This document shows positions 16,979-57,679 of a stretch of DNA of 64,000 nucleotides, piece after piece (position 1 is the first letter of the stretch; every line of letters begins with the position of its first letter). The position numbers and the translations under genes are program-made. The notes below the pieces were generated by a model. It did not search any database. It was not told the origin of the DNA and saw only the letters and a program-made list of their open reading frames with translations. The stretch spans positions 124,001-188,000 of the forward strand of contig NZ_JRKI01000009.1 in NCBI RefSeq assembly GCF_000935125.1, in the 5' to 3' direction. Origin of the DNA: Streptomyces natalensis ATCC 27448 (GTDB lineage Bacteria > Actinomycetota > Actinomycetes > Streptomycetales > Streptomycetaceae).

Positions 16979-16983
16979 CTCGG

Positions 16984-17056
16984 TCCCCTGTAGCTCAATT
17001 GGCAGAGCATTCGGCTGTTAACCGGAGGGTTACTGGTTCGAGTCCAGTCGGGGGAG
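16984..17056 (+). tRNA. tRNA-Asn (GTT), copy 2
   Basis: Same acceptor, D-arm and T-arm as copy 1. The anticodon stem is TTCGG/CCGGA and the anticodon is GTT. It is separated from copy 1 by only 5 nt, so the cluster is probably one transcript. Confidence 0.97.
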
Positions 17057-17061
17057 CTCGG

Positions 17062-17134
17062 TCCCCTGTAGCTCAATTGGCAGAGCATTCGGCTGTTAAC
17101 CGGAGGGTTACTGGTTCGAGTCCAGTCGGGGGAG
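17062..17134 (+). tRNA. tRNA-Asn (GTT), copy 3
   Basis: Identical to copy 2 in sequence and at the same 78-nt spacing, indicating a recent tandem duplication of copy 2. It is followed by a hairpin with a T run. Confidence 0.97.
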
Positions 17135-17145
17135 CAGAGAGAACG

Positions 17146-40513: not shown

Positions 40514-41542
40514 TCACGGAGCCAGCGGATCGAGATGCAGCGGTTCCACCTTGCCCTCGATCATCGCGCCCAGCCCATGGACGGCACAGGTGTCGGGGCG
40601 GTCCGCGACATGTACGGGCATGGCGGTGGCCTGCTCGATCATCGCCTGAAGGCCCGGGGTCAGCGCACTGCCGCCCGCGAGCATGATGCCGCGGTCCGCG
40701 AGGTCGGCCACCAGGTCCGGCGGGCAGTTGCGCAGTACCGCCCCGATACCGTCGAGGATCGCGGTCAGCGGCGTGGTGATGGCCTTCAGTACCCGCTCGG
40801 TGTCGACCTGTACGGAACGCGCCAGCCCGCTGACCACGTCCCGGCCGTGCACCTCGGTCGACGACGCCTGCGCATCGTCTCCGGACAGCATCACCTGGAG
40901 GGGGCGGACGGCCTGGTTCGGCACCATCAGCTCATGGTGCAGCCGCATGTGCTGGATGACCGCATGATCGATGGTGTTGCCGCCCACCGGAACGGTCTCG
41001 GCGGCGACGATCGAGCCGACCGACAGCACCGCGACCTGCGTGGTACCCGCCCCGCACATCACGATCATGGTCGCTTCCGGCTGCTCCACCGGCAGCCCGC
41101 AGCCCACCGCCGCTGCGATCAGCGTGTCGACCAGCTCCACCCGTCGGGCGCCCAGCCCGGTGAGGGTCTCCACGGCGGCCCGCTGTGCCAGCGGCTCGCT
41201 GCCGTACGGCATGCACACCGCCGCCCGCATCGAGGGCTTGCGCCGCCACGTCCTGCGCAGCTTGTCGCCGACGAGGTTGCGCAGCAGCCGCTGGGCCATG
41301 TCGATGTCCACGACGGTGCCGCCGGAGACCGGATGCATCACCCGGATGTAGTCGGGCGTGCGGCCGTCCATCACCTCGGCCTGCGCGCCGACGGCCAGCA
41401 GGGCTCCCGTGCGGACGTTGACCGCGGCCACCGACGGCTCGTCGACGATCATTCCCTGATTCTTGAGGTACACCCTTGTACGGGCCGCGCCGAGGTCGAC
41501 GGCAACGGAGCAGCGCCGCAGCTGGGTGAGGCTTATGGTCAT
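40514..41542 (-). CDS. mbl: MreB-like actin homologue (Mbl type)
   Basis: A 342-aa bacterial actin. AVDLGAARTRVYLKNQG is phosphate loop 1, MIVMCGAGTTQVAVLSVG phosphate loop 2 and IMLAGGSALTPGLQAMIE the adenosine motif, all in order; TVDIDMAQRLLRNLV is the connect region. Compared with MreB the nucleotide loops are divergent (L-G-A-A for D-L-G-T-A). Streptomyces has MreB plus a diverged Mbl paralogue in the SCO24xx region, with roles in spore wall formation; this gene fits Mbl. There are no mreC/mreD genes beside it, which also argues against MreB proper. Start ATG 41542. Confidence 0.75.
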   Translation of the reverse strand: MTISLTQLRRCSVAVDLGAARTRVYLKNQGMIVDEPSVAAVNVRTGALLAVGAQAEVMDGRTPDYIRVMHPVSGGTVVDIDMAQRLLRNLVGDKLRRTWRRKPSMRAAVCMPYGSEPLAQRAAVETLTGLGARRVELVDTLIAAAVGCGLPVEQPEATMIVMCGAGTTQVAVLSVGSIVAAETVPVGGNTIDHAVIQHMRLHHELMVPNQAVRPLQVMLSGDDAQASSTEVHGRDVVSGLARSVQVDTERVLKAITTPLTAILDGIGAVLRNCPPDLVADLADRGIMLAGGSALTPGLQAMIEQATAMPVHVADRPDTCAVHGLGAMIEGKVEPLHLDPLAP

Positions 41543-41676: not shown

Positions 41677-42294
41677 TTACGCGGTCCGGTCGACCAGTCT
41701 CTGGAAGAGCCCCCAGGTGAATTCCGTGACCAGGGCATGCGGCGCGGCATCCGGGTCGGGATCGGGAACCGTGCAGGCCAGCGCCCAGCGGGTGGGGGCG
41801 CTGCCCTCCATCGGGCGGGCCGGCGGGAACGCGCGGGCGACCTCGTCGACCGTGCAGGACCAGGGGGCGAGGTCCGCGGTGGTACGGAGGGCGGGGGCGG
41901 GGGCGCCGGGGGCGCGGACGAGCCAGGCGTTCCAGACGGCGCCGCGCTCGGTGGTCAGGATCTCGAACCGCAGATCGGGCCAGAGCGGCACCGGCCAGGT
42001 CAGCGCCTCGCAGGTCATATCGCCCAGGCGGCGGGCGGTGACGGACTCGGGGGCGCCGAGCAGCGCGCGGTAGGGCCGGAGGCCGCCGGGTGCGCGCGGG
42101 GCATGCATCCGCGCCTGCCAGCGGCGGTTGGCCTCGAGCAGATCGGCGCGGGAGGCCCCCAGCGTATGCAGCGCGTCCTCGACGAGTCCGGGCTGGTGGT
42201 CGGCCATCCGGCGCAGCAGAACGAGCTGGAAGGCGACGGGTCCGGGCGGGCCGGAGGGGCCGGTCGGAGGGTCGTTGTCAGTGGCGGCGTTCAT
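41677..42294 (-). CDS. conserved protein of unknown function
   Basis: A 205-aa soluble protein, Pro/Ala-rich, with landmarks FQLVLLRRMADHQPGLVED, ALHTLGASRADLLEANRRWQ and VTEFTWGLFQRLVDRT at the end. No domain is recognised. It overlaps the end of the FkbM-type gene by 17 bp and so is probably the last gene of the envelope operon. ATG 42294 gives the first residues MNAATDND; the frame upstream is only antisense. Possibly a regulatory or accessory protein. Confidence 0.5.
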   Translation of the reverse strand: MNAATDNDPPTGPSGPPGPVAFQLVLLRRMADHQPGLVEDALHTLGASRADLLEANRRWQARMHAPRAPGGLRPYRALLGAPESVTARRLGDMTCEALTWPVPLWPDLRFEILTTERGAVWNAWLVRAPGAPAPALRTTADLAPWSCTVDEVARAFPPARPMEGSAPTRWALACTVPDPDPDAAPHALVTEFTWGLFQRLVDRTA

Positions 42295-43117
42295 GATGGA
42301 CATCGTCGTGGATGTCGCGGGGGTGGATGTCGTGGTGGCGGATCTCGGGGCCTTGGCGGTTGCCGGGGCGGGTGCCGGCGGGGAGGAAGAGCACGGAGTT
42401 GACATAGCGGCGGTGCGGGGCGAGGGAGCGCCTCAGCAGGCCGTGTTCGGCGACATGGGAGGTACGGGACTGATGAGCGGGCAGATCGAAGTCGGCCAGC
42501 GGCGTCCAGCGGTCGTGCGGCAGGACCCAGCCGCGATAGCCGCGCGCCGCCGTCCACTCCAGGACGGGCGCCAGCGGCTGGATACGCGTCTCCAACTCCA
42601 CGAACAGCGCCGGGAGTTCCCGCTCGACGGTGCGCGCGGCGCCGCGCAGCACGGCCAGCTCGCCGCCGTCCACATCGATCTTGATGAGGGTGACGGAGTC
42701 CAGCTCCAGCGAGTCCAGGGGGAGGCAGGGCACGTCCAGTCCGCTGCCGTGCAGCTCGCGGCGCACCAGCGAGGAGACCCCGCGCTCGCCCCGGCCGTCC
42801 GCCGGCAGCCAGAGGGTGGCGCGACCGGTGCGGTCGGCGGCCGCGGCGGGGACCACCTCGACATGCGGCGGGGTGACGGAGTCGATCAGCCGGGCCAGGT
42901 GTGGCACGGGCTCCAGGGTGACCACCCGCTCCGCACGACGGGCCAGCCGCCGGGTCCAGGGGCCCAGCCAGCCGCCGACGTCCACGGCCGTACCGCCCGT
43001 CGGGCAGAAGTCGGTCAGCCGCCCGAGTTCCGGCTCGAACCGCGGGTACAGCCCGCCCGCCAGCGCGGCCACCAGCCGCCCGGGCAGCCACGGCCCCACC
43101 CGCGCGGCGAGCGTCAC
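42278..43117 (-). CDS. FkbM-family SAM-dependent methyltransferase
   Basis: A 279-aa protein. GGTAVDVGGWLGPWTRRLAR carries the SAM-binding glycine loop, VVTLEPVPHLARLID the acidic strand-2 residue, and LDSVTLIKIDVDGGELAVLRG with the I-D-V-D-G motif is the FkbM family signature. These enzymes methylate hydroxyls or amides on glycans and natural products. A His-rich tail (RHHDIHPRDIHDDVHHERRH) ends the protein. GTG start overlaps the stop of the Trm112-like gene (GTGA). It sits in a minus-strand operon with DMT transporter and Trm112-like genes, which suggests a glycan or lipid target in the envelope. Confidence 0.8.
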   Translation of the reverse strand: MTLAARVGPWLPGRLVAALAGGLYPRFEPELGRLTDFCPTGGTAVDVGGWLGPWTRRLARRAERVVTLEPVPHLARLIDSVTPPHVEVVPAAAADRTGRATLWLPADGRGERGVSSLVRRELHGSGLDVPCLPLDSLELDSVTLIKIDVDGGELAVLRGAARTVERELPALFVELETRIQPLAPVLEWTAARGYRGWVLPHDRWTPLADFDLPAHQSRTSHVAEHGLLRRSLAPHRRYVNSVLFLPAGTRPGNRQGPEIRHHDIHPRDIHDDVHHERRH

Positions 43118-43350
43118 GACGGCACCTCGGCTTCGGCCAGCCGCCGGAGGATCCGGTCGTGCTCGGCGTCGGTGACCTCTTCCCCCGAGGAGGGGAGGAG
43201 CTGCGGGATACCGTCCCGGATCGGATAGCGGCGGCGCATCCGTGGGTTGTAGAGCGAGCTTTCGCCCTCGCCCTCGCCGGTGAGGAGCGAGAGCGGCCCC
43301 TTGTCCAGCGGGCAGGCGAGGATCTTCAGCAGCGGGTCATCGAGGTTCAT
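43114..43350 (-). CDS. Trm112-family small protein
   Basis: A 78-aa protein of the Trm112/UPF0434 type: LKILACPLDKGPLSLL at the start has the conserved C-P-x-x-K/D pattern, and YPIRDGIPQLLP the conserved end strand. Trm112 proteins activate or stabilise partner methyltransferases, which makes its position directly before an FkbM methyltransferase suggestive. Starts at ATG 43350 overlapping the DMT transporter stop and ends overlapping the methyltransferase start. Confidence 0.8.
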   Translation of the reverse strand: MNLDDPLLKILACPLDKGPLSLLTGEGEGESSLYNPRMRRRYPIRDGIPQLLPSSGEEVTDAEHDRILRRLAEAEVPS

Positions 43351-44315
43351 GGCTCAACTCCGTTGGCGAAAGGGGGAGTTACGGGAGGGCGAGCTATCGG
43401 AGGGTGGGTTGCCGGAGGGGGAGTTGCGGGAGCTGGGGGCTCATGGCGGGGGAGGGCCAGCAGGACGGTCAGGGCCACGGCCGTACCGCCGAGCCGTAGC
43501 GCCAGCCGCAGGGGATCGGCCGGCAGCGGTTCGCCGAAGGCGACGGTGCCGCAGGCGACGGTGAACACACAGGTGATGGTGGAGCAGACGGGGACGATGA
43601 CGGAGGCGCGACAGCGTTGCAGCGCGGTCTGGGAGAGCACCAGCCCGGTGGCGCCGGTGAAGAGGAGGAGATAGGGGTACGGCGAGCGCAGCAGGTGCCC
43701 GGCCGCGGCCGGGATGTCGTGGGTGGTGAGCAGGCCGGAGACGCCCTTGATGGCCAGTGAACTGACGCCGTAGAGGAGACCGACGGCCACCCCGTAGGCG
43801 ACGCCTGCCGTCGGCAGGCGGTGGCGGCGTCGTGCGCGCCGTTCCGCCGACCCGTACAGCAGCAGGCCCGCGGCCAGCGACGGCACGGCGATGGTGAGCA
43901 GCGTGGCGGGCGGGGCGGTGCGGGCGATGGTCCGGGCTTCGTCGCCCTGGAGGGAGGCGACGACCATCACCAGCGCGACGAGGATCGCCACCATGCTCTG
44001 GCGCTCCCGGCCGCTGGTCCGCTCGCCCAGCACCACCGACGACAGAATCAGCAGCAGGACCAGCCCCGAGACGAAGATGCCCTGGGCCGCGGCGATCGGG
44101 AGGGCGCGGTAGACGGCGAGTTGGGCGGCGAACCCCGCGGCCAGGGCGAGCGAGCCGCCGAGCCACCGCGGGCTGCCGAGGAGATGGCGTACGACCAGGG
44201 CGGGACGGCGGGTGCTGAGGGCGGGCAGCGTGGCCAGCGCGCGTTTCTCCAGCACGAAACCGGTGCTGTACAGCACGTTGGCGATCAGAGCCGATGCCAC
44301 GCCCCACCACAGCAT
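43347..44315 (-). CDS. DMT-superfamily membrane transporter
   Basis: A 322-aa membrane protein with nine to ten helices. LWWGVASALIANVLYSTGFV starts helix 1, and paired four-to-five-helix halves end with IVPVCSTITCVFTVACGTVA and FGEPLPADPLRLALRLGG, where the F-G-E block in the last quarter is typical of DMT transporters (EamA or NIPA-like). It may move small metabolites or lipid-linked sugars. The tail after about residue 285 is Pro/Thr-rich. ATG 44315; downstream genes are coupled by 4-bp overlaps. Confidence 0.7.
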   Translation of the reverse strand: MLWWGVASALIANVLYSTGFVLEKRALATLPALSTRRPALVVRHLLGSPRWLGGSLALAAGFAAQLAVYRALPIAAAQGIFVSGLVLLLILSSVVLGERTSGRERQSMVAILVALVMVVASLQGDEARTIARTAPPATLLTIAVPSLAAGLLLYGSAERRARRRHRLPTAGVAYGVAVGLLYGVSSLAIKGVSGLLTTHDIPAAAGHLLRSPYPYLLLFTGATGLVLSQTALQRCRASVIVPVCSTITCVFTVACGTVAFGEPLPADPLRLALRLGGTAVALTVLLALPRHEPPAPATPPPATHPPIARPPVTPPFANGVEP

Positions 44316-44378
44316 GGGCCTGCTCCCTTCTCCGCGTTCGGGTCGGCATCGGTGTGCGGTGGCTCCTGTGGACGGCGG

Positions 44379-45176
44379 TCAAGGGGCCTGGAGGGAGCGA
44401 GGGGTTCTGCGGCGGGCGTGGGCCAGGAGGATGGAGGAGAGGGACGGCAGATGGCAGGCGGCGCGGTCGAGGGGGCGCAGGGGGCGGGGGACGTCGTGGT
44501 AGGGGGCGCCGGTCAGGCGGATGACGTCGAAACCGGAGGCGGTCAGGAAGGCGCGCAGCGCACGGGCGGTGTAGAGGCGCAGGTGGCCGACGACCTGGGT
44601 GCCGGGGCGGCCGTGGATATGGCGCAGGCTCACTTCCGAGAAGACGGGCTGGATCCCGGCGAGCAGCAGGCCGCGGTTGTACCAGGCGGCGAGATTCGGG
44701 GTGGAGAGCATGAGGTGGCCGCCGGGGCGCAGGATGCGGTGCAGTTCGTCCAGGGCGGCGTCGGGGTCGACGAGATGCTCGATGACCTCGCTGAAGAGCA
44801 CGGCGTCGGCGGAACCGGTCGCGAACGGCAGCCCGCCGTCGGTCAGTTCACCGCGTACGGCGGTCAGCTCACCGGGGGCGCTCGCGGGGATACGGGTCCG
44901 GGCGCGGCGCAGGGCGTCCTGGGACCAGTCGACGCCGACCAGGCGGTGTCCGGCCAGGAGGCGCGCCGCGGTGGCGGCCGCGGTGCCGTCGCCGCAGCCG
45001 ATGTCCAGGATGGTGGCGGGCGGCGCCCCGGTGCGGCGGGGGCCGAGGGCGCGCGCCAGGAGTGCGGCCTGGCGGGTGCTGCGGGCGGGGCCCGAGGCGA
45101 CCGGAACGGCGGGGTTCTCGTAGAAGTCCCGCAGTCCGGCCGGGGGGTGGGCGGCGCCGGTGGTGGGCCGGGTCAT
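44379..45176 (-). CDS. class I SAM-dependent methyltransferase
   Basis: A 265-aa methyltransferase: ATILDIGCGDGTAAATAARL is the SAM motif I, LVGVDWSQDALRRAR motif II region, DAVLFSEVIEHLVDPDAALD motif III/IV, and LHRILRPGGHLMLSTPNLA a methyltransferase-11/UbiE-like strand. The target is unknown; the cluster suggests a cell-envelope sugar or lipid. ATG at 45176 overlaps the stop of the acyltransferase-like gene (ATGA), so it is the last gene of the upstream coupled set. A 63-bp gap separates it from the DMT transporter gene. Confidence 0.8.
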   Translation of the reverse strand: MTRPTTGAAHPPAGLRDFYENPAVPVASGPARSTRQAALLARALGPRRTGAPPATILDIGCGDGTAAATAARLLAGHRLVGVDWSQDALRRARTRIPASAPGELTAVRGELTDGGLPFATGSADAVLFSEVIEHLVDPDAALDELHRILRPGGHLMLSTPNLAAWYNRGLLLAGIQPVFSEVSLRHIHGRPGTQVVGHLRLYTARALRAFLTASGFDVIRLTGAPYHDVPRPLRPLDRAACHLPSLSSILLAHARRRTPRSLQAP

Positions 45177-46846
45177 GGGGCGGCTCCTTCGGTGGCGGCG
45201 AGGGAGGCGGCGAAGAGGGCGCCGAAGCGGGCGCCGGCCGCATCGTCCAGCAGAGCGCGCGACCAGCGCAGCGCGAGCTGGATACGGCCGCCGACCGAAA
45301 CGGTGGTGACCGTCAGCCCGCGCGGCATCCGGGCCGGGGCCGAGAACCACACCGCGGTCGGCCGTCCGGCGTCGCCGAAGTCGAGGGGATAGGGGAGGCG
45401 GCCGATGTTGGAGAGGAGGGTGGTGGAGGTCCAGGGGGCGGCGGCCGTACGGAGTGCGCGGGTGGCTGCGCCGCGCAGGCCGACGGGCGCGACGGGGAGC
45501 GTCAACAGGGTGCCGGGCAGCCCGAGTTGGGAACCCCGGGTGGCCTTGAGGGCGCGGGTACGGGCGGCCGTACGGCGCAGCAGCAGGGCGACCGCCTCGG
45601 GATCGGGCGGATCGGCGGCGAGCAGGTCGGCGTCCCGTTGCTCCTCCGGGCCGAAGCCCACCGGGATCAGCCGGGTGCCGTTGCCGATGGGCATCTCGCC
45701 GCCGCGCGGCCGGTCGTCGACGGGCATGGTGACGATGACGGGGCGGGTGGGCCGGCCGTGCAGCCGGTTCCAGCGGGCGACCGTGAGGCACGTGGCGACC
45801 AGGAGCTGGTCGTTGACGGTGGGGGGCGTGGTGCGGGGGGCGGCATGGGGGGTGTTCGGTGCCGGGGTGTCCTCGCGGGGTGGTCTGGTGGGGACGGGAA
45901 GTTCGGTGATCAGCATGCCGTTGGTGTGGTCCGTGGGGCCAACGGGGGCGGAGGTGGTGACGAGGACGGTGGCAGGTACGGGGCTGGGGCCCTCGGTGTG
46001 GGAGTGGTCTCGGGGGTGCGGGGGACGGCCGGGGTCGTCGTGGTCGGGGGCGATACGGGCCGGGCGGACGAGACCGGGGCGGGCAGCCGGGGCGCGGTGC
46101 CGGGGTGGGGCGGTGCGCTCCGGGGTGCGTACGGGAGGCGGGGCGGGGGAGTTGTCCGCGCCCCCGTACAGCTCGGCGGTCGTGGCAAGGACACGGAGGC
46201 AGGCCGGGCCGTCCAGGGCGGTGTGGTGGAGGGTGAGGACGAGGACGGTGCCGTCGGCCGCGTCCGGATGGCGTTCGACCACCTCCAGGCGGACGGGGGG
46301 AGAGGCATCCAGGGGCGGGCATGCGGTGAGGGCGCGCTCGCGGGCGCGGACGAGGGCGTCCGGGCCGGGGGGCGGGAAGACGACGGGGTCGACGTCCGGG
46401 GTGGCGGTCAGCTCCCACTCGTAGCGGCGGCGCCACCAGCTCACCGGGGCCTGGCGCATCAGGATCCGGGGGTGGCGCAGGAGGGCCCGGTGGAACGCGG
46501 TGCGCAGGCGCGTGTGGTCGATCCGGCCGGGCAGATGCACCTCGATATGCACGGTTTCGGGCTCGTCGTCCCGCAGACAGTGCCGGGAGATCTCGTCGAC
46601 GAGGGGGAAGGGGAGACGGGCGACGGCCGGGGGGCGGGGGGTGCTGGTGGGGGAGGGGACCTGGCTGTCCGGTTCCTGCCCGTCCGGTTCCCGCCCCTCC
46701 GGTTCTGCCCGGCCTTCGGGCTCGCGCCGGTCCGGTTTCTGCCCGTCCGGTTCCCACCCGTCCGACTCCGCCCGCCCGTCGGGAGCCCGCCCGTCGGGCC
46801 CCCGTCCGTCCGGCTCCCGCCGCGGCGGCTCCCGCAATGTGGTCAC
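45173..46846 (-). CDS. condensation-domain-like acyltransferase
   Basis: A 557-aa protein. The first 55 residues are degenerate repeats of E-P-D-G-R/Q coded by a 15-bp DNA repeat. Next comes the chloramphenicol-acetyltransferase-like fold with the catalytic H-H-x-x-x-D-G motif in LTLHHTALDGPACLR at about residue 195; DQLLVATCLTVARWN and VTMPVDDRPRGG match the middle of PapA/condensation proteins, and LSNIGRLPYPLDFGD the late S-N-I-G block. Such enzymes join acyl groups to hydroxyls or amines. Start is GTG 46846, overlapping the AftD-like gene stop. A Pro-rich insert at about 240-290 splits the fold. An acyl decoration of envelope glycan is the likely job. Confidence 0.75.
   Translation of the reverse strand: MTTLREPPRREPDGRGPDGRAPDGRAESDGWEPDGQKPDRREPEGRAEPEGREPDGQEPDSQVPSPTSTPRPPAVARLPFPLVDEISRHCLRDDEPETVHIEVHLPGRIDHTRLRTAFHRALLRHPRILMRQAPVSWWRRRYEWELTATPDVDPVVFPPPGPDALVRARERALTACPPLDASPPVRLEVVERHPDAADGTVLVLTLHHTALDGPACLRVLATTAELYGGADNSPAPPPVRTPERTAPPRHRAPAARPGLVRPARIAPDHDDPGRPPHPRDHSHTEGPSPVPATVLVTTSAPVGPTDHTNGMLITELPVPTRPPREDTPAPNTPHAAPRTTPPTVNDQLLVATCLTVARWNRLHGRPTRPVIVTMPVDDRPRGGEMPIGNGTRLIPVGFGPEEQRDADLLAADPPDPEAVALLLRRTAARTRALKATRGSQLGLPGTLLTLPVAPVGLRGAATRALRTAAAPWTSTTLLSNIGRLPYPLDFGDAGRPTAVWFSAPARMPRGLTVTTVSVGGRIQLALRWSRALLDDAAGARFGALFAASLAATEGAAP
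46672..46842. repeat. degenerate 15-bp tandem repeat at the acyltransferase N-terminus
   Basis: Units of the type CGTCCGGTTCCCGCC repeat about ten times with changes; on the minus strand they code (R/Q)-E-P-D-G. Length is a multiple of three, keeping the frame. Confidence 0.7.
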
Positions 46847-49800
46847 TCTTCCGTCTCCTCCCCCAGGGGCCGTGGGCCCGGACGTCGTTGCCGGTGGGCC
46901 CAGTTGGGGCCGTTGCCCGGTGTCCGGCCCCGGGCCTGGAGGGGGCGTCCGGCGATGGTCGGCGCGTCGGGCCCCGGCCGCGCCGTGTCCCGGTCGCGGC
47001 GGGGAAGCGGGGGGAGGGACGCGCCCGGCGTGCCCGAAGCGCCGTCCGTCCGGGCCGCCGCTCCCCCGGGCACACCAGGCGCACCAGGCACACCGAGCAC
47101 ACCAGGCGCACTCGGCACACCCGCCGCCCCCGGCGCCTCCCGCACCGTCACCACCGCCGCCGCCAGCGCCGCCAGCGCACACCCCTGCGCCACGGCGCCG
47201 AACGCCCCCCGGCCCGCGGCGACCGGTTCGCCCGCGCCGAAAGCCGCGGTGATGCCCGCGCCCGTCATGGCCGCGAAGGCGACCGGTGCCAGGAACCGCG
47301 GCCGGAAGCGGGCCACGAGCGCCAGCAGCGGCACCACCACCGCGAACGGCCCGGACGCCAGGGCCACCACGCCCGTGAGCGCCACCACGCCCAGCACCCA
47401 CGACGGCGCGGGCGGCGCCACCGGAGCCGGCGGCGGGGTGCGCGGGGTACGCCGTATCAAGGCCGAGACGACGAGCAGCAGGACGCCCGCCATCCCGCCG
47501 ATCAGCCCCAGGTCGTAGGCGGTCGCCGGAGCGTAGGACAGCTCGACGGTGCCGCCCGCGCCGGCCGGGACGAGGAAGCCCTGCTGCCAGCCGTCCACCC
47601 GGAGCGGGGTCAGCGGCCGTCCGTCGAGGGTGGCGTGCCAGCCGTCGTTGGCGTTCTCGTACATCTGGAGGTAGACGGCCCTGCCCGCTCCGACGGCGAC
47701 CGTACGGTGGTCCCCCGACCAGTCCTCGGCCCGCACGGTGCGGGCCTGCGCGGCCGACCCGGGGGCCGGCGCCGCTCCTCTGCTCAGCGTCACATCCGTG
47801 AGCGCCAGCGGCCCCTGGTCGCCGGCCTCCACCCGGTGCCGCCCGGAGGGCAGCGTCAGCCGTCCGTCGGGGGCCTCCCCGGCGCACAACTGCACGGTGA
47901 CCGGCCGCCGTTCGGTCAGATCGCGGAGGTACCCGGAGGCCCTGGTGGCGTGCAGGACGCCGTCGACGGCGAGCATCGGGCCCTGGCCGCAGCCGACCGA
48001 GAAGCGCTTGTGGGCGGGCGGGGGCGGGGTGCGGTACGCGTCGAGGGCCGGGATGTACACCTCGCTGAGGCCGACCGGGAGTTGCAGGGCCTGGCCGGCG
48101 ACCGGGTTGTGGAGGGTCAGTTCCTTGACCTTGCTGATGGTGATGTCGAGGCGGTCGGTGGTGATCGGGTCGAAGCGGGCCTGCCCGTACTCGTCGACCC
48201 CGGCGGTGGCCGCACCGTCCGGCGAATTGATCAGGATCTGCTCGGGCCGGGTGGAGATACCGCCGGCCGCGGCCAGCACGATCTGGTCGATCTTCTTCCT
48301 GCCGGGCCAGCGGAGGTGGAGCGTGGGGCGGTCGCCGGCGATCCAGGCGGTGGTCAGATCGCCGTCGACGAGATTGCGGGGGCTGAGCGACTGGCCGAAG
48401 CCGAAGCTGGTGGAGTCGGCGGTGGCGGTGATGCGGTCCTTCTGCTCGGGTGCGATCTTGTCCATCAGTGTGTCGAGCGCGGGGCCGGGGACGGCCAGGG
48501 CCTTACCGGAAACGGCGTAGGACGCGCCCGCGTCGGTATGGAACTGGCGGTGCAGACCGGTCTCGGCGGAGACGGGGGAGAGGCCGCCGGGGTCGCTGCC
48601 GCGGTGCAGGGAGACGGTCTCGGCGGGCGCATCGGCCCCCTGGCCGCTCGCGTCCCCACCGAGGGAACTCCCGGAACCTTCCGAACTCCCCGAACCTCCC
48701 GAACTCCCCGGACCGGTCCGGGAACTCCCCGAACTCCCCGCACTCCCTGTGCCGCTCCGGGAACTCCCCGTATCCGTCGGGAGTTGAAGAAGACGAGTGA
48801 CCTGCACGCCGGGTACGGAGATCTCGCGGAAGCCCGCACCCGAGAGCCCCGCTCGCGGCGTCTGGGAGCCCAGGATGGTGAGTTTCAGCCAGGTCGCGGT
48901 CCCGGCAGGGGCCTTGACCTGCTGGGGGGTGCCGTCCGGGCGCAGCGGGCTGACCGCGCTGCCGCGGTCGGTCTCGATGCGTACGGACGTCGGGGCGGCG
49001 CGCAGGCCGTCGCCGGGCAGCGGGGTCAGGAAGAGCGACGAGGGGACAGCGGTGGGCTTGGTGAAGGCGATACGGATCCACTGACCGACGGGGTCGCCCG
49101 CGCTGCCCTCCGCCCAGGCGGTGTCCGGGTTGCCGTCGAAGGCGTTGACCGGGTCGTACTGGGGGAGGTGGAAGAGCCAGTTGCCGCTGGTGGAGGCGGT
49201 GACGGAGGCGGCGCCGCGCAGGACGGCGGTGGTCTGGTGCGCGATGCCGGTGGTCGGCAGGATCTGCCGCGGCGGCCGGCCGGGGTCCTGGACGCTGTCG
49301 GGGTGGTTGGTTTCGGTGGCCGTATAGGTATAGGACGTATTGCTGTTGACCAGGCCGAAGCGGGTGTCGGCGCGGCGCAGCCCGTCGGCGGTCAGCTGGA
49401 GCGGCACGTTGCCCAGGCCGGGGTGGTTGTCGCCGGTCAGGACGGTCGGCCGGTCGCGCAGGGTGGGGTCCGCCGAGAGCTGGAGCAGTGATTCGGGGCC
49501 GCCGCTGAGCTGGGCGGTGTCCGCGACGGCCTTGGCGGTGACGGGTCCGGGCGCGGGCGTGCCCTCGGGCTCGTAGATCTCGACCGAGCGCTGACGCGGA
49601 TACAGGCCCTGGACCTGCACCGGCGCCTCGGCGGGGATCTTGCCGCTGGTGGTCAGCGGGCCGAAGGCGACGGCCTTGCGGTAGCCGGACGCCTCCAGGG
49701 TGCGTTTGACGGTCTGGGGCGGCACATAGCCGATCTGGTCCGGGTCGAGATCATTGCGTACGACGACGTCATGAATGCCCGCACGGCCCAAGTAGTCGCG

Positions 49801-51441
49801 CAGTCCGGGGACTTGGGCGCCGGTCATCAGGGCCTGCTCGACGGCGTCCAGGGTCCGGCGGGCGCCCGGGGTGCCGAACGGGACGAAGTCGCGCTGTGCC
49901 CAGGGGGACCGGGCGAGGACGTCGAGGGGTTCGTCGATGGGCGAGCCCCAGGTGTAGATGCCGTGGGCGGTGGCGGGAACGACCAGGGCGCGGCTGTGCG
50001 GGGTGTGGGTGCGCAGCCAGCCGGCGGTGCGTTCCCAGTAGCCGGGCAGCCGGGTGAAGGCGCCGGGCTGGAGGACGGTGCCGGTCAGGAAGGGGAGGGC
50101 GAGGGCCGGGAGGACGAGCACGGCGGCCAGAAGGGCGACCCATCGCGAGGGGAGCGGTCCACGGCACGATAGACGGTGACCGGCGGCGGTGCGGCGGGCC
50201 CCGCTCCCTTCGGCCCGGCTGCCACGTCCCGCGGCGGCCACGGCAAGGACATGCGCCAGCCCGAGGGTGAGCGCCAGGGCCAGGCCCGGGGTGAATTTGT
50301 AGATGTTGCGGAACGGCCGCAGCCAGCCGTTCAGCCAGTCCTGCCACAGCCCGTGGACGGGGCCGCCCAGCGCACCGCCGTATCCGGCCAGCGCGATCAG
50401 GGCGACGCTGAGCACGGTCAGCAGCAGCCAGCGGCGTTCGGGCAGATCGCGGCGGGCCAGCCCGGCCAGGCCCAGCGCGGCGGCCAGCGCCGAGCCCGCC
50501 ACCGCGCACCAGTTGGCGGTCATGGTCCAGCCGGCCGGCAGCCAGGGCTGTCCGAAGTTGAGGTAGCCGACCCAGTTGCCGGCGCCGCGCAGCAGCTCGG
50601 TGGCGGACATGGTGCCGGTGGTGGTGTCCGCCTGCTCGATGAACGGCATGAAGTTCTCGCCGTGGATGCCCAGCAGCAGGAGGGGGACGACCCACCAGGC
50701 GGTGGCCAGGACGACGCCGGGCAGCCACCAGGCGAGCAGCTGCGGGCGCCGGGGTCCCGTACGGGAGAGCAGATACAGGCCGACGGGTAACAGGGAGGCC
50801 AGCGTCGAGGCCGCGTTGACGCCGCCCATGAAGGGGATCAGCAGTGCCGACCGGGTCGCCGCGATACGGGCCCCGGTCCGCGGGTTCGTCAGCGGCAGCA
50901 GCACCCAGGGGAGCAGCGCGCCGGGGAGCGCGGCGGCGGAGGTGGAGCCGATGACGACGGTGTACGTCGGCCACAGCGCGTAGCAGGCGGCGGCGAGCAG
51001 CCGGGTGGGCGGGGTGCCGAAGCGCAGCCGTTCGGCCAGCCGCAGCGCGCCCCAGAAGGCGGCGGTGACGATCAGCGACATCCACAGGCGTTCGGCGAGC
51101 CAGACCGGCAGCTGGAGCAGATGCGTCAGGCCGTAGTAGGGCAGGGTCGGGAAGGCGTAGCCGAAGTACTGGTCGGCGAGGCCGCCGAAGCCCGCCCGGT
51201 CGTGCCACAACTGGCCCAGGTCGGCCAGGAATCCCCAGGGATCGGTGGTCACCCCCAGCTTGGTCTCGAAGGTCATCTTGCCGGGCGAGGGGGCCAGGAA
51301 GCCGATCAGCGCGAGGGCCCAGAAGGCGACCAGCCAGCGCCTGCCGCGCGGTGCGTCCGGTGGCGGGGCGGAGGTCGGCAGGGCCCGGTCGCCGGTGTCG
51401 GGCGATCCCGGGGACGGGGAGGGCCGCAGGGTCTGGGTCAT
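46843..51441 (-). CDS. AftD-like giant membrane arabinofuranosyltransferase homologue (DUF3367)
   Basis: A 1532-aa protein. The N-terminal 450 residues hold about ten membrane helices of a GT-C glycosyltransferase (start RRWLVAFWALALIGFLAPSPG; LADQYFGYAFPTLPYYGL is the first external loop; QDWLNGWLRPFRNIYKFTPG is an AftD/DUF3367 block). The central 850 residues are extracytoplasmic beta-rich domains, with GNPDTAWAEGSAGDPVGQW and DGDLTTAWIAGDRPTLHLRW, two F5/8C-like sugar-binding modules, then helices near the end. A Ser/Gly linker coded by GAACTCCC repeats lies at 48660-48780. In mycobacteria AftD adds arabinose to arabinogalactan; Streptomyces lack that polymer, so the acceptor is unknown. 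Overlaps neighbours at both ends (ATGA and GTGA). Confidence 0.85.
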   Translation of the reverse strand: MTQTLRPSPSPGSPDTGDRALPTSAPPPDAPRGRRWLVAFWALALIGFLAPSPGKMTFETKLGVTTDPWGFLADLGQLWHDRAGFGGLADQYFGYAFPTLPYYGLTHLLQLPVWLAERLWMSLIVTAAFWGALRLAERLRFGTPPTRLLAAACYALWPTYTVVIGSTSAAALPGALLPWVLLPLTNPRTGARIAATRSALLIPFMGGVNAASTLASLLPVGLYLLSRTGPRRPQLLAWWLPGVVLATAWWVVPLLLLGIHGENFMPFIEQADTTTGTMSATELLRGAGNWVGYLNFGQPWLPAGWTMTANWCAVAGSALAAALGLAGLARRDLPERRWLLLTVLSVALIALAGYGGALGGPVHGLWQDWLNGWLRPFRNIYKFTPGLALALTLGLAHVLAVAAAGRGSRAEGSGARRTAAGHRLSCRGPLPSRWVALLAAVLVLPALALPFLTGTVLQPGAFTRLPGYWERTAGWLRTHTPHSRALVVPATAHGIYTWGSPIDEPLDVLARSPWAQRDFVPFGTPGARRTLDAVEQALMTGAQVPGLRDYLGRAGIHDVVVRNDLDPDQIGYVPPQTVKRTLEASGYRKAVAFGPLTTSGKIPAEAPVQVQGLYPRQRSVEIYEPEGTPAPGPVTAKAVADTAQLSGGPESLLQLSADPTLRDRPTVLTGDNHPGLGNVPLQLTADGLRRADTRFGLVNSNTSYTYTATETNHPDSVQDPGRPPRQILPTTGIAHQTTAVLRGAASVTASTSGNWLFHLPQYDPVNAFDGNPDTAWAEGSAGDPVGQWIRIAFTKPTAVPSSLFLTPLPGDGLRAAPTSVRIETDRGSAVSPLRPDGTPQQVKAPAGTATWLKLTILGSQTPRAGLSGAGFREISVPGVQVTRLLQLPTDTGSSRSGTGSAGSSGSSRTGPGSSGGSGSSEGSGSSLGGDASGQGADAPAETVSLHRGSDPGGLSPVSAETGLHRQFHTDAGASYAVSGKALAVPGPALDTLMDKIAPEQKDRITATADSTSFGFGQSLSPRNLVDGDLTTAWIAGDRPTLHLRWPGRKKIDQIVLAAAGGISTRPEQILINSPDGAATAGVDEYGQARFDPITTDRLDITISKVKELTLHNPVAGQALQLPVGLSEVYIPALDAYRTPPPPAHKRFSVGCGQGPMLAVDGVLHATRASGYLRDLTERRPVTVQLCAGEAPDGRLTLPSGRHRVEAGDQGPLALTDVTLSRGAAPAPGSAAQARTVRAEDWSGDHRTVAVGAGRAVYLQMYENANDGWHATLDGRPLTPLRVDGWQQGFLVPAGAGGTVELSYAPATAYDLGLIGGMAGVLLLVVSALIRRTPRTPPPAPVAPPAPSWVLGVVALTGVVALASGPFAVVVPLLALVARFRPRFLAPVAFAAMTGAGITAAFGAGEPVAAGRGAFGAVAQGCALAALAAAVVTVREAPGAAGVPSAPGVLGVPGAPGVPGGAAARTDGASGTPGASLPPLPRRDRDTARPGPDAPTIAGRPLQARGRTPGNGPNWAHRQRRPGPRPLGEETEE

Positions 51442-52163
51442 GGCAACCGCCGGAGGATGAGGAGAAGGTTCCAGGTGGCGACCTCCCGGACACCCGGGAG
51501 GCGGGGGAGGGCCTCGGCGAGGAACGGTGCGTAGCGGGAGCGCGCGGTGACGATCGCGACGTCGTCCCGGGCCCGTACCTGCCGCAGGGTGCGGCCGATG
51601 TGCACGGCGAAGAGATTGACGCCCAGGGTGTGCTTGGCCGGTCTGCCGGTGCGCCGGAGGTAGCGCCTGCGGGCCCGCTCGGCGCCCAGATAGTGCCACG
51701 GTGCGGTCTCATGGCCGCCCCAGGGGGACAGCCAGTTGGTGAAGGAGACGTAGATCAGCCCGTGGGGTCGGGTGACGCGGACCATTTCGCTCAGGAAGGT
51801 CTGCGGATCGGCGACATGCTCCAGGACGTTGGAGGAGAAGCAGATGTCGGCGGCGCCGTCGGCGAGCGGCAGCAGATAGCCGTCGGCGACCACCGCGCCC
51901 TCGGGGATGCGGCCGCGTGCGGTCAGTTCCGCCGTATCGGGCTCGAAGAGCAGGCCCTGGGCACCGCGCCGCCGGAACTCCTCGGTGAAGTGCCCGCTGC
52001 CGCCGCCGACATCGGCGACCACCGCCCCCTTGAGCGGGGCATGGCGCTCCACCTGGTCGGCGGCGTCCCGGGCGAGCAGCCCGTAACAGTGTTCCGGTGC
52101 GCTCTGCTCGTCGAGGAAGGCGCGGAAGAGGGCGTAGGACCTGCGCAGCGAGGGGTCGCGCAC
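51438..52163 (-). CDS. class I SAM-dependent methyltransferase, envelope cluster
   Basis: A 241-aa methyltransferase: GAVVADVGGGSGHFTEEFRR is motif I, FEPDTAELTARGR motif II, and DICFSSNVLEHVADPQTFLS with MVRVTRPHGLIYVSFTNW motif III/IV. SPWGGHETAPWHYLGAERAR is a feature shared with glycan-cluster methyltransferases of mycobacteria. Start is GTG 52163; no better start is in reach. Its stop overlaps the AftD-like ATG, and the glycosyltransferase gene ends 7 bp upstream, so all belong to one operon. Confidence 0.8.
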   Translation of the reverse strand: MRDPSLRRSYALFRAFLDEQSAPEHCYGLLARDAADQVERHAPLKGAVVADVGGGSGHFTEEFRRRGAQGLLFEPDTAELTARGRIPEGAVVADGYLLPLADGAADICFSSNVLEHVADPQTFLSEMVRVTRPHGLIYVSFTNWLSPWGGHETAPWHYLGAERARRRYLRRTGRPAKHTLGVNLFAVHIGRTLRQVRARDDVAIVTARSRYAPFLAEALPRLPGVREVATWNLLLILRRLP

Positions 52164-52170
52164 CGGGCCC

Positions 52171-53394
52171 TCACCGCCCGGGCGGAGCGGTGAGGAACGC
52201 CTCCGCGGCGACCGCGCGGAAGTCGGCGACCGTATGGCTCCACCGGAAGTGGGCGGCGCGCTGCTCCGCGGCCAGTGCGAAGGTCTCGCGGCGGCGGGAG
52301 CTGAGCGCGAGGGTGCACCAGTGCGCGGCGAAGGCGCTCTCGCCGCGGGCCAGCAGGCCGGTGACGCCGTGCTCGACGGAGTCCCGCAGCCCGGGGATGT
52401 CGAAGCCGACGGCGGGCGTACGGCGCGCGGCGGCCTCCATGACCACCAGCCCCCAGCCCTCCACCAGCGAGGGATGCAGCAACAGCCAGGCGGAGCACAG
52501 GAGTTGGTGTTTGCGGTGTTCGGAGATCCGGCCGGTGAAGGTGACGTCCGGACCGGCCAGCGCCGTCAGCCGGGCCCGCTCCGGGCCGTCGCCGACGATC
52601 ACCAGCCGGCCGCCGGTCACCGGGCGGACCCGCTCCCACAGCCGCAGCAGCAGATCGATCCGCTTGTACTCGACGAGCCGGCCCATGGCCACGAAGAGCG
52701 GTTCGGGCGCCTTGGGGGCGAGCCGTCCCGGCTCCTCGACTCCGTTGTGGACCAGGCGGATACGGTCGCGGTCCACGCCGAGGGTGTGCAGCGCGGCGGC
52801 GGTCGAGCCGGAGACGGCGACCATCAGATTACGGCGATGGGTGCCGGCCAGCGCCCAGTGCTCCAGCCTGCGGCCGAGCCGGGCGGCGGGCCGCGGATAG
52901 CGCATCCCCCACAGATCCGTATGGACGTGGTTGACCAGGCACAGGGTCGGGCCCCGGTGCCACAGCGGCGCCAGGTACGGCATCCCGTTGCACACCTCGA
53001 CCAGCAGATCGCAGTCGCCGACCCGGCGGGGCAACTCCCGTGGCGCGCGCAGGAAATGCCCGGCGTCGCCGCCCGCAGAGATCACCCGGTAGCTGCGTTC
53101 GACGGGGGTACCTCCCTGCTCGCGAGGAGCCGAGAGCTTGGGGGCCGGCCCGCCGCACAGCAGGGTGACGTCGTGACCGTGCGCGGTGAGCCCGTCGGCG
53201 ATCTTGTCCACCAGGAGCTCGGAGCCGCCGGCGGCGGGATTGCCCAGGTCGCGGCGGGCGAGGAAGACGATACGGCGGGGGAGCGGTGGCCCGGAGGGGG
53301 ACGGGCCGGGGGCGGGCGGCGCGAGCGGGGCCGTCCGGACGGGGGACGGGACGGGGTGGAGAGGCGGCGGGGACGGTTGTACGTGCTGGGGCAT
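52171..53394 (-). CDS. GT4 family glycosyltransferase
   Basis: A 407-aa GT-B fold enzyme. RRIVFLARRDLGNPAAGGSE starts the first Rossmann domain (the G-G-S-E acceptor loop is GT4-like), and RLVHNGVEEPGRL, FVAMGRLVEYKRIDLLLRLW, VEGWGLVVMEAAARRTPAVG form the donor-binding domain with the conserved E-x-x-x-x-x-x-E pair. It transfers sugar from a nucleotide-sugar to an envelope acceptor. Residues about 86-98 (PKLSAPREQGGTPVE) are coded by an interspersed repeat element inserted in frame, also seen at 53726. A Pro-rich N-terminus of about 38 residues precedes the fold. ATG 53394. Confidence 0.85.
   Translation of the reverse strand: MPQHVQPSPPPLHPVPSPVRTAPLAPPAPGPSPSGPPLPRRIVFLARRDLGNPAAGGSELLVDKIADGLTAHGHDVTLLCGGPAPKLSAPREQGGTPVERSYRVISAGGDAGHFLRAPRELPRRVGDCDLLVEVCNGMPYLAPLWHRGPTLCLVNHVHTDLWGMRYPRPAARLGRRLEHWALAGTHRRNLMVAVSGSTAAALHTLGVDRDRIRLVHNGVEEPGRLAPKAPEPLFVAMGRLVEYKRIDLLLRLWERVRPVTGGRLVIVGDGPERARLTALAGPDVTFTGRISEHRKHQLLCSAWLLLHPSLVEGWGLVVMEAAARRTPAVGFDIPGLRDSVEHGVTGLLARGESAFAAHWCTLALSSRRRETFALAAEQRAAHFRWSHTVADFRAVAAEAFLTAPPGR
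53101..53147. repeat. interspersed palindromic repeat, copy inside the glycosyltransferase gene
   Basis: GGGGGTACCTCCCTG followed by GAGCCGAGAGCTTGGGGG. The reverse complement matches 53726-53767 with a few changes. It contributes an in-frame peptide insertion to the enzyme. Confidence 0.7.
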
Positions 53395-53706
53395 GTGCGC
53401 TCCAACTCGTCTCAGGGTGCGGTACCAGCGGTGGGGGACGTACTGCGTGCTGAGTCGTACTGAGTCGTGCGGGGCGGAGCGGGCGGTGCAGGCCGTGCGG
53501 GGCGTTGCAGGCGGTGCGACGCGGGTGGTGCGTGCGGTGCGACCCGGATGGCGCGGGGCAGGCGTGGTGCGGGTGGTGCCGATGAGGGTGGTGCCCGGGT
53601 GTGGTGCCGGTGTGGGGTGGTCAGTGTTCGCCGCCCCCGGGCGCCGGGGCTACTCACCGGGGTGACAAAATCCCCGGCCGATTGTGCTGACGGTTCATCA
53701 CTTCGC

Positions 53707-54771
53707 TCAGGACCGGCCGTCCGGATCCCCCAAGTTCTCGGCTTCGCTCGAACAGGGAGGTGCCCCCACCCCCCGCACCACCAGCACCACCCCCACCAGC
53801 GCCAGCAGCCCGCCCGCCCCCGCCGCACCCCACGGCAGCGTCCCGCTCACCAGCGCCAGCTTGTCGCGGTCCGCCTCCGCCAGCCGCACCTGGGCCCGCC
53901 GCGTCGCCGGCGTGAACCGCAGCCGCTCACCGCGCAGCAGGGTCACCGCATCGGACCGCGCCCCGGGCGCCCGCAGCGTCTTGAGCGGCGAGATCGCGGC
54001 ATCGATGATCCGGCCCGTACGCGGCTCCGCGACCAGCTCGATCCGGGAGTTCGCATACCACTCCTCGGCCTGGATCTGCCCCTGCCGCGGCCGCCCCACC
54101 AGCCGCCCCGGCACCTGCCGGCTGCCCGTCCGGGTGGCCGGCACGCTCCCGGTGAAGCGGTATCCCGTCACCCCCCAGGCCGTCGTCGTCCCGGTGAAAC
54201 GGAGCGGCACGGCGGCCCCCAGCGTGTTGTCCCACCAGCGATAGCCCCGCTTCTCCAGATCGAAGGGGAATTTGAGGTAGGCATCCCCGTCGAACCGGGT
54301 CGGCGCCTCCCCGCAGCAGTGCACCGGTCCGTTGCTGCGCCGGTCGGTCACCCACCGCTCGGTGGTCCACTGGAACGCCCGCCGCGGATCGTGCAGCGCC
54401 AGCGTCCCGGGGGTGTCGACCGTCGTGGACACGTCCCACACCGCCCGCCCGCTGCGCTCGCTCGCCGCGACATCGCCCAGCACATGCCGGGTGATGGTGA
54501 TCTTCTGCCGCTGCCGGGTCAGCAGCGCCTCGGCGTCGAAGTAGCTCCCGGTGCCGGTGAAGACGGTGGTGACATCGACATCGACCGGGGTGACCTTGGC
54601 CCGCGGGGTGACGTACCAGGCCAGCAGCGGCGCCAGGACCAGCAGAAACACCCCGATGCCCAGGACGAGCAGCGAGAGCGGCGAGGCCCTGCGGGCGGCG
54701 GCGGGCGCCCCCGGCTCGGGCGCACGGGAAGGCGGGTGGGCAGGCGTACGGGCAGACGGATCGGCAGACAT
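53707..54771 (-). CDS. DUF3068 (PorA-like) membrane-anchored protein
   Basis: A 354-aa protein with a short cytoplasmic N-terminus, a membrane helix (LSLLVLGIGVFLLVLAPLLAWYV), a large exported domain of about 260 residues, and a second helix (WGAAGAGGLLALVGVVLVVRG) near the end. The exported part contains VDVTTVFTGTGSYFDAEAL, FDGDAYLKFPFDLEKRGYRW and GVTGYRFTGSVPATRTGSRQ, as in DUF3068 proteins of actinobacteria. Function is unknown; in corynebacteria relatives are linked to the outer envelope. The final 16 residues come from an interspersed repeat. It is the first gene before the glycosyltransferase and probably belongs to the same envelope system. ATG 54771. Confidence 0.8.
   Translation of the reverse strand: MSADPSARTPAHPPSRAPEPGAPAAARRASPLSLLVLGIGVFLLVLAPLLAWYVTPRAKVTPVDVDVTTVFTGTGSYFDAEALLTRQRQKITITRHVLGDVAASERSGRAVWDVSTTVDTPGTLALHDPRRAFQWTTERWVTDRRSNGPVHCCGEAPTRFDGDAYLKFPFDLEKRGYRWWDNTLGAAVPLRFTGTTTAWGVTGYRFTGSVPATRTGSRQVPGRLVGRPRQGQIQAEEWYANSRIELVAEPRTGRIIDAAISPLKTLRAPGARSDAVTLLRGERLRFTPATRRAQVRLAEADRDKLALVSGTLPWGAAGAGGLLALVGVVLVVRGVGAPPCSSEAENLGDPDGRS
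53726..53767. repeat. interspersed palindromic repeat, copy at the DUF3068 gene end
   Basis: CCCCCAAGTTCTCGGCTTCG then AACAGGGAGGTGCCCCC, opposite orientation to the copy at 53101. On the minus strand it codes the last residues (PPCSSEAENLGDP) of the DUF3068 protein. From memory, similar elements recur through Streptomyces genomes. Confidence 0.7.
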
Positions 54772-55250: not shown

Positions 55251-56492
55251 ATGGTGACCGCCGTACGCTCCGCCTGGCGGGAGGTCCCGCCCCGACAGGT
55301 GCGCCGGTTCGCCGCGCTCGCCCTGGGCGAGGTGCCCGCACTGGCCGAGGGCATCCTGCACGAGATCCGCCGCGAATTCCCCCAACTTCCCCTGGTACTG
55401 GACGAGTTCGGGGAACCGCGCGCCCTCGTCGGCATCCGTCAGTCGCTGGAACACTTCGTCGCGCATATGACCGAGGGCCTCGACCGGCCGCATGTCCACC
55501 CCCAGGTCTTCCAGGAGTTCGGCCGCGACGAGGGCATCCAGGGCCGCAGCCTGGACGCCCTCCAGGCCATCTACCGCCTCGGCGTCAAACTCGCCTGGCG
55601 CCGCCTCGCCGAGATCGGCCAGCAGGTCGCCATCCCGGCACCGGCCATGTACGAACTGGCCGAATCGGGCTTCGAGTACCTCGACGGACTGGTCGCCGCA
55701 TCCGTACGCGGCTACGCCGAGGCCGCCGCCCGCCAGGCCGGGGAGCGGCTGCGGCTGCAACGCCGCCTGATGGAGCAGCTGTTCGCGGCCCGCGGCATAC
55801 GGTCCCGGCCCGGCCGCGGCGGACCGGCGCCGGCCGGCCGGCACGCCACGCTCGCCGAACGCGCCGCCCGCATCGGCTGGCCGCTGCCCGAACGCGTCGC
55901 CGTCGCCGTCCTGCTGCGCCCCGCCCGCGCGGCGGTCGCCCCCGCCGTCGCCTCCGACGTCCTGCTGGACATGGACGGCGAACGGCCCCGGATGGTGGTC
56001 CCCGAACCGGACACCCCCGGGCGCCGCGCCCTGCTGGCCCGCGCGGCGGCCGGCTGGTCGGGCGCCATCGGGCCCGCCGTACCGCTGCTGGACGCCGCCA
56101 AATCGCTGCGCTGGGCCGGGGCCGCGGTCGACCTCATGGAACGCGGACTGCTGCCCGCGGGCGAGCTGTTGCAGTGCACCGACCACACCGAGGCGCTGGT
56201 TCTGCTGCCGCCCGAGGAACTGATCGAGGACCTCACCCGCCGCCGCCTCGCCCCCCTCGCCCGCTGCGGCCCCACCCACGCCCGCCGCCTCGCCGAAACC
56301 CTCCTGGCCTGGCTGGAAACCCGCGGCGGCGCCCCCGACGTCGCCGCCCGCCTCGGCGTCCATCCGCAGACCGTCCGCTACCGGCTGCGCCAGATACGGG
56401 AGCTGTGGGGCACCGAGGTGGACGACCCGGACCGCCGCTTCGAGCTGGAACTGGTGTTACGGGCGCGGAGGTTACGGGGGGAACTCGGCTGA
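55251..56492 (+). CDS. PucR-type transcriptional regulator
   Basis: A 413-aa regulator. The N-terminal 170 residues form a helical sensory domain (FPQLPLVLDEFGEPRALVG, GRDEGIQGRSLDALQAIYRLG). The middle is a GGDEF-like CdaR segment without its active motif, and the C-terminal PucR helix-turn-helix reads GAPDVAARLGVHPQTVRYRL then RQIRELWGTEVDDPDRRFELE. Ligand and target genes are unknown. ATG 55251 has GGAGGAGGCC upstream. It ends 72 bp before the convergent GntR/TetR hybrid gene. Confidence 0.85.
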   Translation: MVTAVRSAWREVPPRQVRRFAALALGEVPALAEGILHEIRREFPQLPLVLDEFGEPRALVGIRQSLEHFVAHMTEGLDRPHVHPQVFQEFGRDEGIQGRSLDALQAIYRLGVKLAWRRLAEIGQQVAIPAPAMYELAESGFEYLDGLVAASVRGYAEAAARQAGERLRLQRRLMEQLFAARGIRSRPGRGGPAPAGRHATLAERAARIGWPLPERVAVAVLLRPARAAVAPAVASDVLLDMDGERPRMVVPEPDTPGRRALLARAAAGWSGAIGPAVPLLDAAKSLRWAGAAVDLMERGLLPAGELLQCTDHTEALVLLPPEELIEDLTRRRLAPLARCGPTHARRLAETLLAWLETRGGAPDVAARLGVHPQTVRYRLRQIRELWGTEVDDPDRRFELELVLRARRLRGELG

Positions 56493-57607: not shown

Positions 57608-57679
57608 GTGACGTACCCCTAACTCCCTTTCCCTGCCTGCTGTTTGCGCCGTAAGCGGCGCATGCTTACCGTGTCCACC

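Follow-up and report, generated by a model that had tools for sequence, protein, structure and literature searches.

The locus described here raises the question of what an AftD homologue may do in a bacterium that lacks the known route to the arabinose donor of this enzyme family. The known AftD (GT53) is an alpha-arabinofuranosyltransferase which uses decaprenyl-phospho-arabinose (DPA), and AftD and PgfA alike are known from work on the mycobacterial wall, of which they are components. Within the window, a stretch of 64,000 nucleotides from Streptomyces natalensis ATCC 27448 (contig NZ_JRKI01000009.1, positions 124,001 to 188,000), nine minus-strand genes at 42278-54771 encode PgfA, a GT4 glycosyltransferase, an S-adenosylmethionine (SAM) methyltransferase (MT1), AftD, a condensation-type acyltransferase, a second methyltransferase (MT2), a transporter of the NIPA/drug-metabolite transporter (DMT) type, a Trm112-like protein and an FkbM methyltransferase. 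The eight genes from PgfA to Trm112 constitute one unit that is inherited together, and what is new is that their core, which is distributed across the class, is the mycobacterial tmaT-pgfA-mmpA-mtrP-aftD locus in an altered form, in which the acyltransferase has been exchanged and the AftD loop has changed. We consider it fairly probable that the locus serves to make an envelope glycan or glycolipid that is acylated and methylated, and to deliver it. The likeliest scenario is that the final steps take place outside the membrane and use a lipid-linked sugar other than arabinose, and the product is probably a surface polymer or glycolipid that has so far not been described.

The cluster is inherited as a unit

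AftD was found in 21 of 121 Streptomycetaceae genomes, i.e. in about one in six, among them 11 of the 28 from the genus of the source, and in all 21 PgfA is located within ~10 kb of AftD; PgfA overall occurs in 59 of the 121 genomes. At all 20 other Streptomycetaceae AftD loci, PgfA, GT4, MT1, AftD, the acyltransferase and the transporter are present, while MT2 and Trm112 are missing only at two loci of which a short stretch was analysed. The 20 loci fall into two arrangements, A with the gene order of the window (n=13) and B with a shuffled order (n=7). The one-strand order PgfA-GT4-MT1-AftD-Cond-MT2-NIPA-Trm112, in which Cond stands for the condensation-type acyltransferase, is kept in 54 of the 56 named Streptomyces loci that have enough flanking sequence; 55 of these carry the transporter, all 56 Trm112 and 38 FkbM. 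A PucR-type regulator gene adjoins PgfA in divergent orientation in 69 of 70 named loci and is present in all 13 clade A loci. All 8 Streptomycetaceae genomes with AftD in the class sample, and none of the 14 without, have the acyltransferase; outside the Streptomycetaceae it was seen in this sample only in one family (f18), where its distance from AftD is mostly 4-6 kb. The AftD proteins of the Streptomycetaceae group together in one clade (100/99) comprising A and B, and as the PgfA tree shows the same clades, AftD and PgfA have travelled together within the family. Given the AftD-PgfA linkage, the conserved order and the co-occurrence of the acyltransferase, the cluster genes are not independently distributed. 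An earlier prediction made from the DNA of the window, hereafter the original prediction, had proposed that the genes form one unit and suggested a conservation survey across Streptomyces; the survey bears this out for the eight genes from PgfA to Trm112, with FkbM as an optional member.

As judged from dN/dS values of 0.15-0.33 against the closest relative, all nine genes are under purifying selection. Chance or an annotation artefact is ruled out by these values, the 56 named loci and the strength of the AftD matches (709 bits; E 7e-134).

An altered form of the mycobacterial locus

AftD is not limited to mycobacteria and the present cluster. Of 246 Actinomycetes genomes, 112 have it, representing 42 of 103 genera, and in 85 of 110 tabulated genomes PgfA is no more than 20 kb away, though never in family f18 (19 genomes). 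GT4, an MT1-type methyltransferase, AftD and PgfA occur together in most of ~30 loci outside the Streptomycetaceae; counts of additional neighbours outside Streptomyces are lower bounds, as simple gene calling lost some overlapping genes. One such locus (L047, family f4) carries AftD, an AT3 acyltransferase, PgfA (340 bits), MmpA (651 bits), GT4 and MT1, in the gene order of the published tmaT/mmpA/mtrP region (PMC8698533). The window GT4 matches the glycosyltransferase of L047 with a phmmer E of 4e-38, and MT1 matches the gene at the MtrP position with E 7e-53. Since L047 and other families share the MT1-GT4-AftD-PgfA core, the window cluster is a version of the mycobacterial locus (Rv0224c-Rv0236c; NCgl2759-2765 region), with which it has in common PgfA, an MtrP-type methyltransferase, a GT4 at the same place, AftD and an acyltransferase partner. 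The original prediction had not recognised this relationship. The DUF3068 protein, to which it gave no name, is PgfA (NF053601, 307 bits).

The two versions differ in several respects. Corynebacteria and mycobacteria are said to be the only groups with MmpA homologues (PMC8698533), and none of the 121 Streptomycetaceae genomes has MmpA. A PapA-like acyltransferase replaces the TmaT-type AT3 enzyme, which was detected in 22 non-Streptomycetaceae loci and in none of the loci L021-L040. Streptomyces adds MT2, the NIPA/DMT transporter, Trm112, PucR and often FkbM, and the source genome is without Emb, DprE1 and DPPR synthase. MT2 was not found in the sampled loci of other families, save for weak cross-matches to MT1-type genes. 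Our literature search returned nothing on Rv0225 or on AftD outside the mycolata; the sole mention from Streptomyces names aftD among the recombining genes of S. rimosus.

The source genome also has a second PgfA (L074:9966-10967; G000:C10:298998-299897; 328 bits to NF053601) beside apparent rpsA and coaE genes. The AftD-PgfA locus of many other families adjoins the same apparent rpsA and coaE genes, and this site may be the ancestral position of the locus. In family f18 (e.g. L059, L060), AftD is usually accompanied by a second, distant paralogue; it is linked to the condensation-type acyltransferase in ~10 genomes, and not linked to PgfA.

The sugar donor

Family searches of the 8.65-Mb source genome revealed neither Emb nor DprE1. 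The sole ALO-domain protein (L083) was considered as a source of DprE1 activity and rejected, as it is a lactone-oxidase-type FAD enzyme with a DprE1 score of 86 bits against a cut-off of 500. The UbiA family is represented by only two proteins, which are heme o synthase and MqnP, and the genome thus has no DPPR synthase. With Emb, DprE1 and DPPR synthase all lacking, the set of enzymes for arabinogalactan biosynthesis is absent and the known route to DPA is closed, in agreement with the earlier claim that Streptomyces lack the known AftD substrates. Throughout the class, Emb is limited to family f4 (19 of 246 genomes). DprE1 does not track AftD, being present in 14 of 21 Streptomycetaceae genomes with AftD and in 48 of 100 without (Fisher p 0.15), and 60 of 110 class genomes with AftD have no DprE1; DPA made by the known route is therefore not required. 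The best candidate for the AftD donor may instead be polyprenyl-phospho-mannose, which is favoured because Streptomyces make it with Ppm1, as described for S. coelicolor (PMC5882110).

DprE1, which is taken to mark arabinan synthesis, is present in 62 of the 121 Streptomycetaceae genomes (57 above the curated cut-off; e.g. G033:C1:3893519-3894859), and Emb is absent from all Streptomycetaceae genomes of the class sample. In several genomes of family f17 that lack Emb (e.g. G318:C7:770212-784428), DprE1 and PgfA are ~2 kb apart within the AftD locus; this might possibly be an Emb-free arabinan locus.

The AftD protein and its active-site loop

The window protein comprises a GT-C domain (residues 48-715), an F5/8-type domain (747-824), a CBM_AftD module (1003-1130; 60 bits against a cut-off of 27) and C-terminal transmembrane segments, and thus has the domains expected of the AftD family. 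Its alignment with the solved AftD of M. abscessus (PDB 6w98/6wbx) extends over residues 32-1402 (E 7e-134), including the GT-C domain and the AftD binding module. In comparison with the mycobacterial enzyme (GT53, PDB 6w98), it carries the changes D59->E and D63->G, and its genome lacks the donor pathway. In GT-C enzymes, the catalytic aspartate sits in the first periplasmic loop (PMC12041299). This loop reads DTKxD in other AftD proteins and ETKLG in the window protein, which accordingly keeps one of the two acids. Position 59 is occupied by Asp in 30 of 32 AftD proteins from outside the Streptomycetaceae and by Glu or Asp within Streptomyces (42 Glu and 38 Asp in 80 named clade A loci, counted by alignment). 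At position 63, Asp is found in all 32 of the former and in 7/7 clade B proteins, and Gly in 14/14 clade A proteins and 78 of the 80 named loci. Loss of the catalytic loop residues, which the original prediction had set down as evidence against itself, is thus seen in part, with the acid kept at position 59 and replaced at position 63 across clade A. Elsewhere, 87 of 103 columns that are invariant or nearly so in the class are retained, including E269 and K382; further changes relative to the class occur at positions 89, 92 (Tyr), 100 (Leu), 170 and 388 (Ala). No text naming the catalytic residue of AftD was found in our literature search, the primary AftD structure paper being outside its reach. 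The loop changes suggest an altered specificity, or possibly a non-catalytic role of the protein.

The acyltransferase

The window acyltransferase scores 35 bits against TIGR02946 (cut-off 310) and no Pfam family above cut-off, and a single-protein search matched no solved relative, so that the assignment was made by alignment and a predicted model. The AlphaFold2 (AF2) model (pLDDT 66) matches condensation domains (Z up to 24.8), WS/DGAT (6chj, Z 21.0) and PapA5 (1q9j, Z 20.2); the catalytic His and Asp of the HHxxxDG motif (H208, D212) are invariant in 15 orthologues, and a clade B orthologue exceeds the cut-off of PapA_C (PF16911; 34.8 versus 30 bits). Based on the fold, the motif and the match in clade B, the predicted acyl transfer is well supported. 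With PapA5, WS-DGAT and condensation-domain enzymes the protein shares the condensation fold (Z 20-25) and the motif; in contrast to them it is a stand-alone protein of an envelope locus, and its identity to solved members is 11-18 %.

Proposed function and points against it

From the protein families and the resemblance to the mycobacterial locus we infer a sequence of steps, all substrates and what the transporter, Trm112 and PucR do. The GT4 enzyme would assemble a sugar chain on a lipid at the cytoplasmic face, and MT1, MT2 and, where present, FkbM would methylate it, one of the methyltransferases possibly being activated by Trm112. The PapA-like enzyme would acylate a sugar hydroxyl, with an acyl-CoA or an acylated carrier protein as donor, and the NIPA/DMT protein might then flip the lipid-linked intermediate or donor. 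Outside, AftD is predicted to add a sugar from a non-DPA polyprenyl-phosphate donor while its binding modules hold the growing acceptor; PgfA would carry the product through the wall, with PucR controlling expression. As PgfA is tied to both trehalose-mycolate trafficking and the maturation of lipomannan and lipoarabinomannan (LAM), the product could be a polymer as well as a small glycolipid. The three-component pentofuranose systems (PMC11127046) are similar in that a single locus combines a GT-C enzyme that has carbohydrate-binding domains with a candidate flippase; the window cluster differs from these in having no donor synthase, a candidate flippase that is DMT-like and not MATE, and acylation and methylation in addition.

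Several points weigh against the locus making an acylated, methylated glycan or glycolipid. Neither a donor synthase nor a polymerase is located within the cluster. The AftD loop changes E59 and G63 could mean that catalysis has been lost. In addition, neither lipomannan nor LAM is known from Streptomyces (PMC5882110), and the polymer found in S. hygroscopicus is lipoteichoic acid (PMC3196553); hence no known polymer fits the product. With no polyprenyl-sugar donor synthase in the cluster, the original prediction of one complete envelope pathway for an undescribed glycan is upheld for the unit and for the undescribed product, and not for completeness.

Alternative readings

The strong similarity of AftD across nearly its whole length might be taken to indicate that the protein is a true arabinofuranosyltransferase and the cluster makes an arabinan-bearing envelope glycan, with DPA supplied by an unrecognised or shared route, the more so as DprE1 occurs in 14 of the 21 Streptomycetaceae genomes with AftD and lies near PgfA in the f17 AftD locus. 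However, seven of these 21, including the source, are without DprE1, its higher frequency alongside AftD (14/21 versus 48/100) is not significant (p 0.15), 60 of 110 class genomes with AftD do without it, and the source genome has no DPPR synthase; together with the clade-specific loop changes, this renders an arabinan product distinctly improbable. The same loop changes, with Gly at residue 63 in 14/14 clade A proteins and 78/80 named loci and Asp or Glu at residue 59, could also point to a clade A AftD that no longer transfers sugar and serves, like MmpA, as a scaffold or carrier for acylated glycolipid transport with PgfA and MT1. MmpA resembles the N-terminal part of AftD without recognisable catalytic domains (PMC8698533), and is itself missing from all 121 Streptomycetaceae genomes. 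An acid is nevertheless found at position 59 in every sequence checked, the 87 retained columns include E269 and K382, the binding modules are kept and clade B has both Asp residues, and we therefore regard a loss of transfer activity as rather unlikely.

A further possibility, on the unlikely side but to be taken more seriously than the preceding two, is a narrower form of our own proposal, in which the product is a short acylated glycolipid, such as an acyl-methyl oligosaccharide, that works like trehalose monomycolate and is exported by PgfA. In favour of such a product, PapA5, an enzyme of related fold, acylates a lipid in mycobacteria. PgfA works in trehalose monomycolate trafficking (PMC9678360), and trehalose corynomycolate is the target of MtrP, MmpA and TmaT (PMC8698533). 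The PgfA homologue of C. glutamicum, in contrast, acts in lipomannan/LAM maturation, and the large binding modules of AftD would rather suit a polymer acceptor.

Mycolic acids are not known from Streptomyces. It might be speculated, as a tentative view to which we give somewhat less than even weight, that the AftD-PgfA-MtrP-GT4 core represents an ancient actinobacterial machinery which assembles and exports acylated surface glycans and predates mycolic acids and arabinogalactan, that mycobacteria adapted this core to arabinan and trehalose lipids, and that Streptomyces retained it to make an acylated, methylated glycan, as yet undescribed, from another lipid-linked sugar with a changed AftD active site. 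The Streptomyces version, in easily grown bacteria without an arabinan route, would allow the shared function to be studied free of arabinan and mycolates. The cluster further suggests that current descriptions of the Streptomyces envelope lack a surface glycan or glycolipid, and it cautions against naming such genes 'arabinofuranosyltransferase' from similarity.

Organisation of the locus and neighbouring genes

Gene calls and family scans recovered all genes named in the original prediction, including an AftD of exactly 1532 residues (Table 1). The span given in that prediction, 43347-54771, takes in PgfA to the transporter, whereas Trm112 and FkbM lie beyond it and the divergent PucR gene had been overlooked. 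The described chain of overlapping genes was found in part: overlaps of 4 bp occur at five junctions (MT1/AftD, AftD/acyltransferase, acyltransferase/MT2, transporter/Trm112 and Trm112/FkbM) and resemble those of a translationally coupled operon, whereas GT4 and MT1 are spaced by 7 bp without overlap. A gap of 312 bp separates PgfA and GT4.

Table 1. Features of the cluster and its divergent regulator, in positions of the window
Feature	Position	Strand	Details
PucR-type transcriptional regulator	55251-56492	+	PF13556 69.7 bits; divergent from pgfA
PgfA / DUF3068 (PorA, PF11271), membrane-anchored periplasmic protein	53707-54771	-	354 aa; NF053601 equivalog 307 bits (cut-off 160); PF11271 247 bits
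GT4 glycosyltransferase	52171-53394	-	407 aa; PF13692/PF13439; agrees in place and family with the glycosyltransferase adjoining mycobacterial PgfA/MmpA (Rv0225 position)
MT1, MtrP-type SAM methyltransferase	51438-52163	-	241 aa; PF08241 64 bits
AftD homologue	46843-51441	-	1532 aa; PF11847 709 bits (cut-off 26); PF24607 60 bits
AftD residue E59, first loop acid	51265-51267	-	alignment with other AftD
AftD residue G63, second loop acid position	51253-51255	-	alignment with other AftD
Condensation-superfamily (PapA / WS-DGAT-like) acyltransferase	45173-46846	-	557 aa; TIGR02946 E 6e-9, below cut-off; fold match of AF2 model
HHTALDG catalytic motif of acyltransferase	46208-46228	-	H208 and D212 invariant, 15 orthologues
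MT2, SAM methyltransferase	44379-45176	-	265 aa; PF13489 81 bits
NIPA/DMT-type transporter, candidate flippase	43347-44315	-	322 aa; PF05653 41.5 bits (cut-off 26.2)
Trm112-like zinc protein, candidate methyltransferase partner	43114-43350	-	78 aa; PF03966 44 bits
FkbM methyltransferase, optional member	42278-43117	-	279 aa; PF05050 45.5 bits, TIGR01444 62.7 bits

Downstream of the cluster, a homologue of MreB/Mbl (343 bits; 40514-41542, minus strand) is present in 11 of the 56 named loci, all from close relatives. On the other side, a regulator with GntR and TetR helix-turn-helix domains (56565-57509, minus strand) and an adjoining MFS transporter (57644-59302, plus strand) are likewise kept in close relatives only. 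Further away in the window, three tandem tRNA-Asn(gtt) genes are located at 16906-17135 (plus strand), with a tRNA-Met gene shortly after them.

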